Source of the DNA: Gleimia coleocanis DSM 15436
GTDB lineage: Bacteria; Actinomycetota; Actinomycetes; Actinomycetales; Actinomycetaceae
Direction: 5' to 3'
Length of the DNA: 64,000 bases
Assembly (NCBI RefSeq): GCF_000159015.1
Contig: NZ_DS999541.1
Coordinates: 1 to 64,000 of the forward strand
Shown here: one piece after another, positions 7,315 to 39,977 of the stretch
Layout: each line of letters begins with the position of its first letter
Numbering within the stretch: the first letter of the stretch is position 1
Program-made: the position numbers and the translations under genes
The notes under the pieces: model-generated
What the model was told of the DNA's origin: nothing
The model's database searches: none
Seen by the model: only the letters and a program-made list of their open reading frames with translations

Positions 7315-8796
7315 CTAACGGACAGTGTGTATGGACTCCGGAGACAGCTTAGCGGCACGTAGATTAACTTGATCGAATGCCCAACCACGGTCGGTAAGAA
7401 TGCGAGCCAATCCTAAACCAGCGCCGATAGCTAAGATCACGAATGTAACTTCCATAACGGATGCCATAGCAGTTTCGAAACTACCTTGGTTCAATGCCGT
7501 GATAGCGCGGTAGAATGGCACACCAGGAATCATGATGACCACAGCGGGAACGGATAAGGAAACACGTGAGAAGTAAGTCTGTGCAGCGATAGCGGAAGCT
7601 ACCAGACCAACTAGCAGGGCAGTGAGCGCCACCAGACCCTGGTTTGGTAGTCCAAAGTGAACTAGCAGAATCCGGATTGGGTTAAGAATCGCCCCTACTA
7701 AACCAGCCGTGAACGCAACCTTTAGTGGGGAGTTAAATAGAATTGCGAAGCAGAACGCTGCTATCCAAGTAGCGCAAGCATTCATTACGAATAGTAGTAC
7801 CAGGTTGGAAGGGACGTGCACAGTTGGTTCCACCGACCAATTTGTAACGCTTACTACCGCCCAAGTTGCTACGCCAGCTGAAACCATCAGAGTCATTACG
7901 TAGAATCCACGTGCAATGCCCGCCAGCATATCTAGACGAACCAGGTCAAGGATGGAAGTAACCAGTGGGAAACCTGGGACGAGGTAAAGAATCGTGGAAA
8001 TAACGCCAGACTGGTGGGAACTGTCAATGATAGTAGTTTGGAGTAGGACAGAGACGACTGCGATGTAGAAGCTGGTGGAAAGTACTGCGCAGGCTAACCA
8101 GGTAGCGACATGGTTGAAGCGTTTACCTAAGAGGATGGAACGCAAATATTGACCAATGAAAGCTGCGAAGAGAACTACGGAGCATTCAACAACGCCGCCT
8201 TTGTTTAAAAAAGCGAATCCCGCACATCCGAAACCTGACGCGAGAGCCAGTTGTAGGCGGGAATACAGGTGAGGCTTGGCAGCGATCTCATCGAGTTTTC
8301 GGTCGAGATCTTCCACAATCATGCCGGGTTGTAGATCGCGGAGGAAGACTCGCAAGGCATCTATGCGGTCAGCGTTTACGCCAACGATGCGTTGTTCCAC
8401 GATTTCAGTGCGGAATGTGCCTGAGGTATGCGCGGTAAGAGCAAGTTCAGTAAGACCTACCTGAGATTGAACTTTTTCAATGCCGACTGCTGCGGCTAAG
8501 CGAGCCATAGCGGTTTTTACGCGGTATGCGCCAGCTCCGGCAGCCATTAGTAGCGTGCCGAGTTTAATTACGAGGTTAGTTTGTGCAATCAGGCGGTCTG
8601 CTGCCGCTTGTCGTTCAGCAAGTTCAGTTTGACTTGCAGAGAACTGGGCTAAGCGGTCGTGAAACTCTTTATCGGTTAAGTGTGAAGCCGTGTTTTCTGC
8701 AGGGGATACAACAGGAGTATTAGCTTGGCTAGGGTTATTACGCTTTAGCGAATCAATAATTTTCTTTAACACGGAAATAATTTTATGACTGGGCAA
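7315..8796 (-). CDS. Threonine/serine exporter, ThrE family
   Basis: A 493-aa membrane protein matching actinobacterial ThrE: a soluble N-terminal domain (DUF1212, about residues 70-185, ending near QPGMIVEDLDRKLDEI) followed by about ten hydrophobic segments, with a second ThrE_2-like half holding VSLSVPAVVIMIPGVPFYRA at about 410-430. ThrE of Corynebacterium exports Thr and Ser using the proton gradient. Position next to the ilv genes is suggestive, since threonine is the precursor of isoleucine, but the two transcripts are divergent. The start is uncertain: TTG at 8796 or GTG at 8772, neither with a good ribosome binding site. Confidence 0.88.
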   Translation of the reverse strand: MPSHKIISVLKKIIDSLKRNNPSQANTPVVSPAENTASHLTDKEFHDRLAQFSASQTELAERQAAADRLIAQTNLVIKLGTLLMAAGAGAYRVKTAMARLAAAVGIEKVQSQVGLTELALTAHTSGTFRTEIVEQRIVGVNADRIDALRVFLRDLQPGMIVEDLDRKLDEIAAKPHLYSRLQLALASGFGCAGFAFLNKGGVVECSVVLFAAFIGQYLRSILLGKRFNHVATWLACAVLSTSFYIAVVSVLLQTTIIDSSHQSGVISTILYLVPGFPLVTSILDLVRLDMLAGIARGFYVMTLMVSAGVATWAVVSVTNWSVEPTVHVPSNLVLLFVMNACATWIAAFCFAILFNSPLKVAFTAGLVGAILNPIRILLVHFGLPNQGLVALTALLVGLVASAIAAQTYFSRVSLSVPAVVIMIPGVPFYRAITALNQGSFETAMASVMEVTFVILAIGAGLGLARILTDRGWAFDQVNLRAAKLSPESIHTVR

Positions 8797-8951
8797 CGAC
8801 GCTTAAAAGCATGCCTATATGGTTTGTGAGGAAAGAGACGAGCTGGTATCGAAAAGCGCTATAGGGTTTTGTTTATGAGGAATGCTCTATTGATGATTGG
8901 AGGGAAGATATCCAAAATAAGAGACAGCTTTCAGAAAATAAATGTGGTGCG

Positions 8952-8957
8952 TATAAT
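8952..8957 (+). promoter_or_regulatory. -10 element of the ilvBNC leader transcript
   Basis: A consensus TATAAT sits 8 bases before the ATG of the leader peptide, so transcription should begin at or within two or three bases of that ATG and the leader peptide would be read from a leaderless mRNA. No good -35 hexamer was seen. Confidence 0.6.
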
Positions 8958-8965
8958 AATTTATT

Positions 8966-9037
8966 ATGAGTCTAAACAGCGTAGTCATTATTAACGCCGT
9001 GGTCATTGTGTCATGGCGTGTGAGTTCTGCTGTTTGA
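8966..9037 (+). CDS. ilv operon leader peptide (attenuator)
   Basis: A 23-codon open reading frame in which 10 residues are Val or Ile, with runs VVII (codons 6-9) and VVIV (codons 12-15). It begins right after a TATAAT box and ends 23 bases before a Rho-independent hairpin upstream of ilvB. This is the classical layout of branched-chain amino acid attenuation: ribosomes stall at Val/Ile codons when charged tRNAs are scarce and let transcription enter ilvB. A 10-bp helix (9014-9023 with 9049-9058) spans the stop codon and may be part of the switch. A helix mutually exclusive with the terminator was not identified with confidence. Confidence 0.75.
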   Translation: MSLNSVVIINAVVIVSWRVSSAV

Positions 9038-9060
9038 AAATAGGTGAATCACACGCCAGG

Positions 9061-9097
9061 CCCTTTCGAAGCTAGAAGCATCCGAAAGGGGTTTTTT
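9061..9097 (+). terminator. ilvB attenuator hairpin
   Basis: CCCTTTCG (9061-9068) pairs with CGAAAGGG (9083-9090), followed by G and six T (9092-9097). Its position between the leader peptide and the ilvB start makes it a conditional terminator. It also argues against the GTG at 9044 as the ilvB start, because that reading would run through the hairpin. Confidence 0.8.
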
Positions 9098-9121
9098 ATA
9101 GTCAAAATAAGCACTGGCAGA

Positions 9122-10918
9122 ATGGACACAGACATGAAAAAACCGGCGAATACTGAAGAAACCCTACAAGCCGCTCCCGAACGTATAACCGGAGCGCAAG
9201 CGATTATCCGTACATTAGAAAACCTGGGGGTAACTGACGTATTTGGAATGCCCGGTGGCGCTATCCTCCCCACCTACGATCCGTTAATGGAATCAAACCT
9301 ACGCCACATTCTGATTCGCCATGAACAAGGAGCTGGACACGCAGCAGAAGGCTATGCAATCTCAACTGGGAAAATTGGGTGTGCCATCGTAACTTCAGGA
9401 CCTGGAGCAACCAACACTCTCACCGCCCTAGCTGACGCAAACTTGGACTCCGTACCAATCGTGGTTATATCTGGTCAGGTTGCTACGAATTTCATAGGTA
9501 CCGACGCATTCCAAGAAGCCGATGTGATTGGAGCTGCTATGCCAATCACAAAGCACGGGTTCATAGTCCGTGAAGCAAAAGACATTCCAGCACGAATCGT
9601 AGAAGCCTTTCACTTAGCAAATACCGGTCGCCCAGGCCCGATCCTAGTAGACATCACCAAGTCAGCGCAAAATGAAATGCTTGACTTCGTATGGCCACCC
9701 GTAATGGACTTGCCGGGTTACTCCCCAGCCCACGAACCCAAAGAAGACGAAGTAGTAGCAGCTGCTACACTCATCGCACAATCACAAAAACCAGTGTTTT
9801 ACGTTGGTGGAGGACTGGTACGTGCACAGGCAGCGCACCTCTTAAAAGACCTGGTAGCAATCACCGATATTCCAGTCGTTACAACACTACCAGCCCGAGG
9901 CGCATTCCCAGACACCGACCCACATCATCTAGGGATGCCAGGCATGCACGGCAGTGTCCCAGCTGTTGGAGCGCTACAACGTGCAGACCTAGTAATCTCC
10001 CTCGGTGCTCGTTTTGACGACCGAGTAACCGGTAACCTCGACTCCTTCGCTACCCGCGCGAAAGTAATCCACGTAGATATTGACCCAGCAGAAATCTCGA
10101 AACTACGCCATGCAGATGCTCCAATAGTTGGACACCTGCTACCAGTTCTAGAATCCCTAAAACAGCAAATCCCACTCGCCTATAAAGAACACGGCAAACC
10201 AAACCTAGACAATTGGTGGAGTTTCCTTAACAAACTCAAAGCAGACTACCCATTGGGATGGGCAGAACCCACAGACGGAATGCTCGCCCCACAATACGTC
10301 ATCAAACGAATCTCTGACCTGACCGGGCCAGAAGCCATCTACGTAACCGGTGTCGGCCAACACCAAATGTGGAGTGCCCAATTCATCGAATTTGGAAACC
10401 CCGGATCATTCGTATCCTCATCCGGACTTGGAACCATGGGCTATTGCATACCTGCAGCTATGGGAGCCCAAGTTGGCAACCCAGGTACGAAAGTTTGGGC
10501 AATTGATGGTGACGGATCATTCCAGATGACGAACCAAGAATTAGCTACCTGTGTAATCAATAACATTCCTATCAAAGTAGCTCTCATAAATAACTCGGTA
10601 CTAGGTATGGTAAGGCAGTGGCAAACGTTGTTCTACAACAGTCGCTACTCAAACACCGTACTATCTACACCAGGCCAAGAAGTACCAAACTTCTTAAAAT
10701 TAGCAGAAGCATACGGAATTGAAGGAAAACGGGTATACACTGAAGCAGAAGCAGATGAAGCGATCAAGTGGGCGCTCAGCGTGAACGACCGTCCAGTGTT
10801 CATAGACTTCCGCGTATCTAAGGACTCACAAGTATGGCCAATGGTTGCAGCAGGAGTCTCAAACGACGCAATCCAGTACGCTCGCGGTATTGCACCAGAA
10901 TGGGATGAGGAGATCTAA
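9122..10918 (+). CDS. ilvB: Acetolactate synthase large (catalytic) subunit
   Basis: Makes 2-acetolactate or 2-aceto-2-hydroxybutyrate from pyruvate, the first common step of Val/Leu/Ile synthesis; uses ThDP, Mg and FAD. The sequence shows VFGMPGGAILPTYDPL, the catalytic Glu region RHEQGAGHAAEGYA, TSGPGATN, and the ThDP/Mg motif DGDGSFQMTNQELAT..NNSVLGMVRQWQ. 598 aa from the ATG at 9122, the usual length. A GTG at 9044 in frame would add 26 residues encoded by the attenuator and was rejected; ATG 9134 is an alternative. First gene of ilvBNC, one base before ilvN. Confidence 0.95.
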   Translation: MDTDMKKPANTEETLQAAPERITGAQAIIRTLENLGVTDVFGMPGGAILPTYDPLMESNLRHILIRHEQGAGHAAEGYAISTGKIGCAIVTSGPGATNTLTALADANLDSVPIVVISGQVATNFIGTDAFQEADVIGAAMPITKHGFIVREAKDIPARIVEAFHLANTGRPGPILVDITKSAQNEMLDFVWPPVMDLPGYSPAHEPKEDEVVAAATLIAQSQKPVFYVGGGLVRAQAAHLLKDLVAITDIPVVTTLPARGAFPDTDPHHLGMPGMHGSVPAVGALQRADLVISLGARFDDRVTGNLDSFATRAKVIHVDIDPAEISKLRHADAPIVGHLLPVLESLKQQIPLAYKEHGKPNLDNWWSFLNKLKADYPLGWAEPTDGMLAPQYVIKRISDLTGPEAIYVTGVGQHQMWSAQFIEFGNPGSFVSSSGLGTMGYCIPAAMGAQVGNPGTKVWAIDGDGSFQMTNQELATCVINNIPIKVALINNSVLGMVRQWQTLFYNSRYSNTVLSTPGQEVPNFLKLAEAYGIEGKRVYTEAEADEAIKWALSVNDRPVFIDFRVSKDSQVWPMVAAGVSNDAIQYARGIAPEWDEEI

Positions 10919-10919
10919 A

Positions 10920-11432
10920 ATGCCTGCAAAACACGCACTTTCCGTCCTCGTAGAAAATAAGCCCGGCGTACTCACCCGCGTAACAGCTCTGTTCGCCCGA
11001 CGGTCTTTCAACATCGTGTCTCTTGCTGTGGGAGAAACAGAACATCCTAAAGTGTCACGTATTACTTTAGTAGTTGAAGCTAGCGACAACGAAGTAGAAC
11101 AAATCGTAAAACAGCTCAATAAGCTCATAAACGTGCTAAAAATCGTCGACCTTTCAGAAATTCCCGCTGTACAACGGCGCCTAATGATGATTAAAGTACG
11201 AGCCGACGAAAGTCGCCGTACCGGGGTCCTACAAATCGTGGAACTATTCCGCGCACATGTAGTTGATGTTTCCCCTGAATCCGTAGTCATCGAATCTATC
11301 GGAAACGAAGAAAAACTTAATGCCCTGCTGGGAGCTCTCTCTCCGTATGGTTTAATCGAAATTGTCCAATCCGGTTCAGTGGCAATCAGCCGTGGACCAG
11401 AAGCCATCCTGGATCAACTAAAAGGAGAATAA
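10920..11432 (+). CDS. ilvN: Acetolactate synthase regulatory subunit
   Basis: The 170-aa small subunit that activates IlvB and confers valine feedback control. An N-terminal ACT domain begins [31 protein letters not shown], and a C-terminal ALS_ss_C domain follows (residues about 85-165). ATG at 10920 was chosen because GAGGAG lies 7 bases upstream and the ACT domain starts right there; the frame is open further up inside ilvB. It follows ilvB by one base and precedes ilvC by two, so the three genes form one operon. Confidence 0.95.
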
Positions 11433-11434
11433 TC

Positions 11435-12460
11435 ATGGCTGAAATGTTTTACGATGACGACGCAGATTTGTCACTAATTCAAAATAAGAAAGTTGCCATT
11501 ATCGGCTACGGTTCACAAGGGCACGCACATGCGCTTAACCTACGCGATTCCGGAGTACAGGTAGTAGTAGGTTTGCGTGAAGGCTCCACTTCTTGGAATA
11601 AAGCAGCAGAACAAGGGTTGGAAGTAGCGCCAATCGCCCAGGCAGTTGCCAGTGCAGACATAGTTATGATCCTCACCCCAGACCAGGTGCAACGCCACGT
11701 TTATGCTTCTGAGATTGCTCCAAACCTCAAAGCAGACGCAGCTTTGTTTTTCGCACACGGTTTTAATATCCGTTTCGGATACATCAGCCCGGATGCTTCC
11801 CATGACATTTGCATGGTAGCGCCAAAAGGTCCAGGACACACGGTACGTCGCCAGTATGAGGAAGGTCGTGGCGTGCCAGCAATCGTAGCAGTTGAAAATG
11901 ATGCTTCTGGTTCTGCTTGGGATCTGGCACTCTCTTACGCAAAGGCAGTAGGTGCAACTCGTGCGGGCGTAGTAAAGACCACTTTCAACGAGGAAACTGA
12001 AACTGACCTGTTCGGTGAACAAGCAGTTCTTTGCGGCGGTGTTTCCCAACTAATCCAGTACGGTTTTGAAACCCTGGTGGAAGCCGGCTACCAGCCAGAG
12101 ATCGCTTACTTCGAAGTCTGTCACGAACTGAAACTCATCGTAGATCTGATTAACGAGGGCGGTTTGGCAAAGCAACGTTGGTCATGCTCTGACACTGCAG
12201 AATACGGAGACTACGTATCCGGCCCACGAGTAATCACCCCAGACGTAAAAGACCACATGAAGGACGTTTTGGCAGACATTCAGTCCGGTGCTTTCGCAAA
12301 GCGTTTCATCGACGACCAGGATGCTGGCGCTCCAGAATTCCTGGCACTGCGTGCTAAAGGCGAATCCCACCCAATTGAAGCCACCGGTCAGGCTCTGCGA
12401 AAGAGTTTCGGCTGGTCTTCACGCGACGAAGACTACACTGACGGTTCCGCAGCGCGCTGA
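11435..12460 (+). CDS. ilvC: Ketol-acid reductoisomerase, class I (short form)
   Basis: Second step of branched-chain synthesis: Mg-dependent alkyl migration and NADPH reduction of acetolactate to dihydroxyisovalerate. 341 aa, typical of class I. The N-terminal Rossmann fold carries [17 protein letters not shown] (24-40); the knotted C-terminal domain holds the metal-binding [13 protein letters not shown] and a conserved [17 protein letters not shown] region. AAAGGAG lies upstream of the ATG. Last gene of the attenuated ilvBNC operon, followed by a hairpin terminator. Confidence 0.97.
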
Positions 12461-12474
12461 AACTAACCCATGAG

Positions 12475-12518
12475 AGTTCGCCCTTCCTAATCCTTTAAAG
12501 TAGACGGAAGGGCGAACT
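12475..12518 (+). terminator. Terminator of ilvBNC
   Basis: A 13-bp perfect inverted repeat (12475-12487 with 12506-12518), 18-nt loop, 14 bases after the ilvC stop. The T-tail is weak (TCATAAT), so termination may be partial and ilvE may be partly co-transcribed. Confidence 0.6.
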
Positions 12519-39236: not shown

Positions 39237-39977
39237 CTACAAGCCAGCTTCTTCAGCGCGACGCAAGAACTCAGACAAACGGTTAGCAGCAGCCACCACC
39301 GAAGGACCAAACTGGCGACCCGGCTGGCGTCCCATGCGCTCAATCGGACCAGAAATAGATAGTGCCGCAATCACCTTGCCACCCGGGCCGCGCACTGGAG
39401 CAGAAACGGAAGCAACCCCTTCTTCACGTTCGCCCACCGACTGAGCCCAGCCACGGCGGCGGACAGAAGAAAGCATAGTCGCATTGAAAGAAGCCCCGTA
39501 TAAACCACGGTGCAGGCGGTCGGGTTCTTCCCACGCCAAAAGAATCTGAGAAGCGGAACCCACCTTCATAGAGAGGGTCGCACCAACTGGAATGGAATCA
39601 CGTAGCCCCATTTGCCGTTCTGCAGCTGCCACACAGATCCGCTGGTCGCCTTGCGCGCGGAAAAGTTGGGTGGATTCCTTAGTGTGGTCACGTAACGCTA
39701 CAAGCACAGGAGTTGCGGAAGCCAACAGCCGGTCCTCGCCAGCTACGGAAGCAAGTTCATTTAAACGTGGCCCTAAAACAAAACGACCTTGCATATCGCG
39801 GGCTACGAACCTGTGGTGTTCGAGCGCAACAGCAAGGCGGTGGGCGGTAGGGCGCGCCAGCTCGGTAGCTGCAACTAACTGAGCTAGGGTAGCGGGCCCG
39901 CTTTCTAAAGCAGAGAGAACTAAGGCGGCTTTATCAAGAACGCCTACACCAGAACCGGTTGATACTTCTTCCTCCAT
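39237..39977 (-). CDS. IclR-family regulator, NdgR/LtbR type
   Basis: A 246-aa regulator with an N-terminal winged helix (VLDKAALVLSALESGPATLAQLVAATELARPTAHRLAVALE, residues about 13-53) and a C-terminal IclR effector domain (about 80-240). The sequence closely resembles NdgR of Streptomyces and LtbR of Corynebacterium, which control leucine and related amino-acid genes, usually from next to leuCD. Here leuCD is absent: the divergent neighbour is murA. A GCCCTCGG copy (40050-40057) lies in the shared upstream region. Function by homology: amino-acid-responsive regulation, possibly of ilv/leu genes elsewhere. Confidence 0.88.
   Translation of the reverse strand: MEEEVSTGSGVGVLDKAALVLSALESGPATLAQLVAATELARPTAHRLAVALEHHRFVARDMQGRFVLGPRLNELASVAGEDRLLASATPVLVALRDHTKESTQLFRAQGDQRICVAAAERQMGLRDSIPVGATLSMKVGSASQILLAWEEPDRLHRGLYGASFNATMLSSVRRRGWAQSVGEREEGVASVSAPVRGPGGKVIAALSISGPIERMGRQPGRQFGPSVVAAANRLSEFLRRAEEAGL

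Follow-up and report, generated by a model that had tools for sequence, protein, structure and literature searches.

A probable leaderless attenuator of ilvBNC in Gleimia coleocanis with a candidate antiterminator hairpin beside the terminator

The ilvBNC operon of Gleimia coleocanis DSM 15436 is preceded by a very short reading frame rich in valine and isoleucine codons and by a terminator-like hairpin, which raises the question of how translation of the one could govern the other. A first-pass annotation of the window (the whole 64,000-nt stretch of DNA analysed here) had read the frame as a Val/Ile leader peptide controlling ilvBNC, had reported no antiterminator and had suggested a switching logic possibly unlike that of enteric bacteria. 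We consider the best explanation, and a likely one, to be a leaderless ribosome-mediated transcription attenuator of ilvBNC that switches between two hairpins, H_A and H_B, the second lying next to the terminator. What computation shows directly is the reading frame, the pair of competing hairpins and how well they are conserved, the rules of spacing and the link between Leu codons and leuC.

Leader, promoter and operon

The sequence TATAAT lies at 8952-8957 (+ strand) and is followed, after 8 nt, by an ATG at 8966, as the annotation had it. The reading frame that starts there (8966..9037, + strand) has 23 codons and a TGA stop codon at 9035-9037. Its product, MSLNSVVIINAVVIVSWRVSSAV, holds the ten Val/Ile residues claimed for it (7 Val and 3 Ile among the 22 residues beyond Met). 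Codons 6-15 (VVIINAVVIV; 8981..9010, + strand) form a sensor run free of Leu; codon 3, outside the run, is Leu. Among 58 ATG or GTG ORFs of 10-40 codons with TAnnnT 6-8 nt upstream on both strands of the window, this was the only one with at least 40% Val/Ile, and no second leaderless Val/Ile leader was found on either strand of these 64 kb; 60 Markov sequences gave a chance expectation of 0.18 Val/Ile-rich leader ORFs per 64 kb. The U-tailed hairpin is likewise present: a predicted intrinsic terminator (9061..9097, + strand) comprises a stem at 9061-9090 and six U residues at 9092-9097, ahead of an ilvB start at 9122 or 9134. A simple terminator scan, limited to loops of 3-8, found none.

The operon itself consists of ilvB (acetolactate synthase large subunit, 9134..10918 with an alternative start at 9122), which matched NCBIfam models NF005860 and TIGR00118 above their cut-offs, ilvN (acetolactate synthase small subunit, 10920..11432) and ilvC (ketol-acid reductoisomerase, 11435..12460), all on the + strand and the latter two identified by NCBIfam search. 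In the named collection, from which very near records were possibly omitted, the best IlvB identities were to Actinomycetaceae MAGs (81% and 72%) and Schaalia (71 and 70%). The genome is 1.72 Mb in size. Divergent from ilvB is a membrane-protein-like gene (7315-8796, - strand) with no NCBIfam match at 1e-10, which we take to resemble a ThrE-type exporter, and a perfect 12-bp inverted repeat (gttcgcccttcc / ggaagggcgaac, 12477-12517) without a long U run lies between ilvC and ilvE.

A candidate -35 hexamer, TTCAGA (8930..8935, + strand), was located by consensus scan 16 nt upstream of the -10 hexamer, and TTCAGA-16-TATAAT gives 10 of 12 consensus matches. The scan returned 2 sites in the region on both strands, compared with a mean of 1.0 in shuffles. 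The start codon would lie at most about 2 nt from the putative transcription start; we infer this start site and initiation by 70S ribosomes, and regard a leaderless reading frame as highly probable. Translation of the leader from a longer transcript appears very improbable: inspection by eye revealed no Shine-Dalgarno sequence 5' of the ATG, TAnnnT stands 6-8 nt upstream of the start codon in 28 of 28 close leaders (a spacing not independent of how the leaders were chosen), and leaderless ilvB leaders are reported, in the parts of the accounts compared below, from Corynebacterium glutamicum, C. diphtheriae and Streptomyces lividans. Rfam covariance models, including T-box models and any ppGpp riboswitch model there, gave 0 matches with E up to 5 in 8700-9400, and on this ground a known RNA family was rejected as the identity of the leader.

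Conservation in relatives

Comparison with sister species, which the annotation had proposed as a check, showed the leader, the hairpin and the spacing of the promoter in relatives as well. Ten of the 11 genomes of the genus have the arrangement; the eleventh (G002) is cut, its ilvB lying 78 nt from a contig end. A covariance model (R1) was built from an alignment of 22 of the 28 close leaders (L013, L014, L117, L124, L129 and L131, all similar to kept rows, were left out). In 10 of 11 genus genomes it has a strong match upstream of ilvB (E 6.5e-15 or better); nine of these are training rows and matched by construction, and G009 is not a training row. Since the model matches 13 of 39 relatives, similarity of sequence appears to be largely gone beyond the close genera. 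The order of elements is nevertheless conserved across the genus and a large part of the family: TAnnnT, 6-8 nt, a start codon, a run of codons for branched-chain amino acids (BCAA), a hairpin round the stop codon, the terminator and ilvB. The leader ORF has 22-24 codons in the 28 close leaders, and 64 of 85 family genomes have a scorable BCAA run directly 5' of the hairpin.

A leader detector was applied to 170 upstream stretches, some of them shortened and some from genomes represented twice. It annotated 104 loci, of which 88 scored at least 50 and 83 were unique; 67 of the unique leaders belong to the family, 2 to the order and 14 to the named loci. Its choice of terminator and ORF used closeness of H_B to the terminator, fit to the -10 hexamer and V/I/L content, and therefore the gap, the -10 spacing and, in part, the BCAA profile are not independent of that choice. 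Because only 17 of 80 named actinobacterial loci passed, many of the misses being Microbacteriaceae to judge by the titles of their records, the device appears to be widespread, not universal.

Two predicted, mutually exclusive hairpins

The leader RNA is predicted to form two hairpins 5' of the terminator. H_A (8973..9036, + strand) is the leader ORF folded on itself and is a candidate anti-antiterminator; H_B (9014..9058, + strand), an 18-bp hairpin whose apical loop holds the UGA stop codon, is a candidate antiterminator. The annotation's statement that no antiterminator could be found thus holds in part: a strong candidate hairpin does exist at 9014-9058, and no conserved strand common to antiterminator and terminator was found by folding and shuffling of the 28 close leaders, which fits the suggestion that the logic may be unlike the enteric one. 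The folding that had been proposed as a check found all three structures more stable than most shuffles. H_B folds with -22.4 kcal/mol (z -4.65; equalled by 0 of 200 shuffles), H_A with -25.7 kcal/mol (z -3.77) and the terminator with -13.7 kcal/mol (z -2.30; equalled by 6 of 200 shuffles).

In 25 unique close leaders the outer and inner stems of H_B retain 92% and 87% standard pairs, respectively, against 32-44% for a slid inner stem, and one inner pair, between the next-to-last codon (third base) and a base located 3' of the stop codon, appears as C-G in 14 of them and as T-A in the other 11. Two-sided changes in the inner stem occupy 16 cells, and 12 and 11 in two slid versions, a count that alone does not single out H_B. 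End-to-end pairing of H_A averages 9.8 pairs compared with 3.6 in shuffles and exceeds the shuffle mean in 28 of 28 leaders, being equalled in single leaders by up to 17% of shuffles (z -0.22 in L033).

H_A and H_B have 9014-9036 in common and are mutually exclusive as nested structures. The full-length minimum-energy fold of the window leader is H_A; at equilibrium, with the leader wholly free and the 3' arm of the terminator not yet made, H_B (0.88) beats H_A. The sharing of strands matches, in this model, a 1:2 and 2:3 logic. The conservation of H_B supports its assignment as antiterminator, and the missing antiterminator is probably H_B. That the H_A/H_B switch operates we think fairly likely.

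Sensor codons and ribosome position

In the 83 leaders, whose BCAA profile depends partly on the way they were chosen, BCAA codons occupy position -4 relative to H_B in 70 of 82, -3 in 73 of 83, -2 in 71 of 82 and -1 in 14 of 82. The run thus ends one codon upstream of H_B. With a modelled ribosome, H_B of the window stays formed at ribosome positions up to and including codon 14 (footprint +9) or 13 (footprint +13); at the last sensor codon, 15, a fraction of ∼0.7 (+9) or 0 (+13) of its core pairs remains, and from codon 17 through the stop codon it is gone. The scan of ribosome positions was run for 15 of the 28 leaders, all of which behave like the window, with H_B intact until the ribosome is a few codons away. 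The placement of the BCAA run, the recurrence of the leader in relatives and the studied leaderless ilvB leaders all support the annotation's view of a peptide that controls ilvBNC, and we consider it very likely that the leader is a BCAA attenuator.

We propose the following scheme. When BCAA-tRNAs are plentiful, the ribosome would reach the UGA at the tip of H_B and melt H_B, and the terminator would form (OFF). If no ribosome is loaded, H_A, which is transcribed first, could form, and the terminator could again form (OFF). When charged Val- or Ile-tRNA is short, the ribosome would halt within codons 6-15, covering the 5' strand of H_A and stopping just 5' of H_B. With that strand covered H_B would form and, ending 2 nt 5' of the terminator stem, would prevent closure of the stem base in the exit channel of RNA polymerase, giving read-through (ON). 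Of the steps in this scheme we infer leaderless initiation, ribosome halting and, most of all, the steric effect that H_B would have on the terminator.

Position of H_B relative to the terminator

H_B ends at 9058 and the terminator stem starts at 9061, so the two have no common base and are separated by 2 nt. The gap is -1 to +5 nt in the 28 close leaders, for which it also entered into the choice. In 75 of 83 unique leaders the distance from the strongest stem to the terminator is -3 to +5 nt, as it is in 320 of 1245 shuffles (26%). This comparison is partly circular: the stem was found again without a gap condition, yet on leaders that the detector had chosen, among which a few are doubtful (L049, L070). 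A longer H_B that would reach into the terminator was considered and rejected; in the window the extension gains one C-G pair past a mismatch and produces no overlap. In equilibrium folding of the window the terminator has a probability of 0.89-0.92 in all four states, whether H_B is present or absent, and H_B and the terminator can coexist. Because they coexist, H_B, if it is the antiterminator, must act by position or timing.

Coexistence would also be expected if H_B were an insulator, holding the leader off the terminator without any antiterminator role and leaving control to the presence of a ribosome or the speed of RNA polymerase. The low pairing of the 5' arm of the terminator with free upstream RNA points the same way, since in the 28 leaders it averages 0.35, below the 0.46 of shuffled sequences. 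An insulator, however, need not abut the terminator, as the strongest stem does in most leaders, and it has no need of BCAA codons that end one codon upstream of H_B. We consider this reading unlikely.

A more conventional possibility is an overlapping antiterminator, in which the stop region (9033-9044) pairs with the 5' arm of the terminator (9061-9071) during the halt. This pairing fits the window, where upstream pairing of the terminator arm is 0.69 in the halted state and 0.13 with the ribosome at the stop codon, and in L119 and L128 it is equalled by only 0% and 5% of shuffles. Moreover, in L003 and L119 the halted state itself leaves the terminator at 0.20 and 0.05, the effect expected of an overlapping antiterminator. 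The pairing is nevertheless not conserved, being 0.14 or less in 9 of the 28 leaders and reaching the top tenth in 2 of the 28; in the window it is equalled by 17% of shuffles, and the mean given above lies under that of shuffles. It was rejected as the general antiterminator, and we regard it as improbable.

For H_B acting from beside the terminator, the geometry of transcription is relevant. The stem of a terminator closes within the exit channel of RNA polymerase, at the point where the RNA-DNA hybrid ends, and a long helix 2 nt from the base of that stem would also have to occupy the channel. H_B may in this way block the terminator sterically. We give such action by juxtaposition a little less than an even chance.

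Leucine codons and the leucine pathway

Profile searches found no match to leuA, leuB or leuC in the G. coleocanis genome, and the absence of Leu codons from its sensor would seem to match the genome's apparent loss of the leucine pathway. The relation was examined across the family with leuC as the marker, which was chosen because the other two models are unreliable: one leuC+ genome (G006) escaped the leuA model, and within the genus no leuB match rose above the cut-off of its model. Of 85 family genomes, 9 had no annotated attenuator and 12 were skipped because codons -4 to -2 held fewer than two V/I/L. In the 64 counted, Leu codons were present in 51 of 56 leuC+ and 1 of 8 leuC- genomes (Fisher 9.4e-6, phylogeny ignored). 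Twelve leuC+ genomes, all with Leu (7 newly fetched and 5 earlier skipped), and two leuC- genomes, G068 without and G148 with Leu, were added by eye, bringing the family to 63 of 68 leuC+ against 2 of 10 leuC- genomes with sensor Leu codons. In this by-eye set 8 of 22 stretches gave no leader under the filter, including G021 and G131, whose detector ORFs contain Leu. G143, G148 and G149 are classed as leuC- by elimination, lying outside the 129 leuC positives and within 12 unlisted negatives.

Within the genus, Leu occurs in the run of 4 of 4 readable leuC+ leaders and 0 of 6 leuC- leaders. G000, G001, G004, G005, G008 and G009 gave no leuC match above cut-off and have kept ilvB. In a tree of IlvB, G001, G004 and G009 group with leuC+ G002 and G010 (support 100/98), apart from G000, G005 and G008; the leuC- genomes G149 and G068 belong to other genera. 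Since the leuC- genomes thus form two groups in the tree plus two other genera, about four separate losses of the leucine pathway are suggested, all with Leu-free sensors. The leader of leuC- G068 reads MPKISVIVVT, and that of its leuC+ congener G011 reads MANIFVLVIS.

Two leuC- genomes are exceptions in having kept Leu. G143 is 85% complete, and its leader is nearly the same as that of leuC+ G117. G148 (leader L183) has an ilvB match with one in-frame TAG, while its leader and terminator look intact, and is perhaps a pathway in early decay. Conversely, five leuC+ genomes lack Leu in the counted codons (L027, L144, L139, L121 and L158, from G022, G082, G105, G132 and G138, respectively). The pattern as a whole supports a working sensor that would be tuned to the products still made.

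Relation to known attenuators

Enteric trp and ilv attenuators operate by a 1:2, 2:3 and terminator logic with a halted ribosome, and such a logic is also proposed here. In contrast to the enteric systems, in which strand 3 of the antiterminator is the 5' strand of the terminator, strand 3 here lies outside the terminator, and no ribosome-binding site was seen 5' of the leader.

The comparisons that follow draw on parts of the cited accounts. The ilvBNC operon of C. glutamicum has a three-hairpin attenuator model with the leader gene ilvL, in which a change of VVV to AAA abolishes regulation and +1 lies one nucleotide from the start codon (PMC11857589). As here, a leader ORF with BCAA codons, an antiantiterminator, an antiterminator and a terminator precede ilvBNC. 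Its leader has 15 codons and contains Leu, compared with 23 codons and a Leu-free Val/Ile run, and its antiterminator and terminator share a GCC trinucleotide (PMC11857589), a base overlap that is absent in G. coleocanis. The ilvB-II motif, described from 103 Corynebacterium sequences (PMC10272879), resembles the present leader in having a uORF that covers most of the first hairpin, followed by a terminator stem, before ilvB. Its antiterminator uses the right shoulder of the terminator, a comparison made by description and not by alignment. In the ilvB1NC attenuator of Mycobacterium tuberculosis (PMC13236596), a ribosome at the stop codon or halted in a BCAA uORF likewise decides the fate of the terminator, and a change of LVVI to AAAA abolishes regulation. 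There the mutually exclusive hairpins were predicted by masking and are compared by description, and the uORF is not called leaderless in the account compared.

Leaderless leader peptide genes before ilvB are described in S. lividans (IlvL, with hairpins and a U-rich tract downstream; PMC8079986) and C. diphtheriae (PMC5784534), with peptides that contain Leu and are shorter than the present one (13 and 15 residues, respectively). A survey of 2005 listed ilvB leaders with terminators in Actinobacteria and noted missing components (PMC1262725). Counting against an attenuator reading, it cites a substitution of the candidate codons upstream of S. coelicolor ilvB that was without effect. The G. 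coleocanis locus has the features of the broad actinobacterial type, namely a short BCAA-rich ORF before ilvB, a predicted U-tailed terminator between the two and, 5' of that terminator, a pair of predicted and conserved hairpins that exclude each other. Because such devices are documented in C. glutamicum, C. diphtheriae and S. lividans, at least in the parts of those accounts compared, a leaderless ilvB attenuator is of a known kind and has an ordinary function in a known class.

What appears to be new is the H_A/H_B pair in Actinomycetaceae, predicted to abut rather than overlap the terminator, and the link to Leu codons. A limited search of open-access PubMed Central returned nothing on an ilvB attenuator in Actinomycetaceae, on antitermination without overlap in an ilvB attenuator or on a Leu-codon link. 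We tentatively suggest, at rather worse than even odds, that the ilvB attenuator of Actinomycetaceae, and perhaps of other Actinobacteria, switches by juxtaposition without stealing bases and that its sensor sheds Leu upon loss of the pathway. If juxtaposition is true, the 3-nt overlap of C. glutamicum would be one end of the -3 to +5 range, H_B would offer a switching part for attenuators whose antiterminator is hard to find, and the geometry could be tested by simple insertion of a spacer. If the shedding of Leu is true, a short ORF would report which amino acids a genome still makes, and the pattern looks like repeated evolutionary tuning of attenuator codons to the remaining pathway.

Upstream box and an IclR-type regulator

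A conserved box, CCAAAATAAGAGAC (8912..8925, + strand; consensus approximately CCAnnATnTGAGAC), lies upstream of the promoter as a candidate regulator site. In the 104 annotated loci, which include some duplicates and some doubtful starts, CCAnnATnTGAGAC occurs at -52..-55 from the leader start codon in 14 and at -63..-65 in 26, and is absent in 40; the two distances differ by about one helical turn. A scan of the G. coleocanis genome for CCANNATNNGAGAC gave 1 match against 3 for a reversed control, and in the window 10 sites matched the box when up to 2 mismatches were allowed, compared with 13.65 expected. Since neither scan shows an excess, it is the position of the box in relatives that speaks for it. 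The box looks like an operator of the IclR type, and we take it to resemble an LtbR box. As an NdgR site it was rejected, there being no clear match to the Streptomyces NdgR consensus in the published part compared (PMC4340878).

The recurrence of the box at two phased distances and the presence of an IclR-type gene in the window would suit control by a DNA-binding regulator at this box only, with the peptide incidental. The conserved frame, the BCAA run, the RNA pairing and the Leu/leuC link point instead to a translated sensor, and we consider control by the regulator only to be most improbable. Attenuation through the leader, as proposed above, is the reading that we retain. The IclR-type gene (39237-39977, - strand) is the best HTH_IclR match in the genome, and the ORFs beside it resemble, by eye, murA, plsC and ddl; going by this synteny, it is possibly an LtbR/NdgR orthologue that outlived its leu genes.
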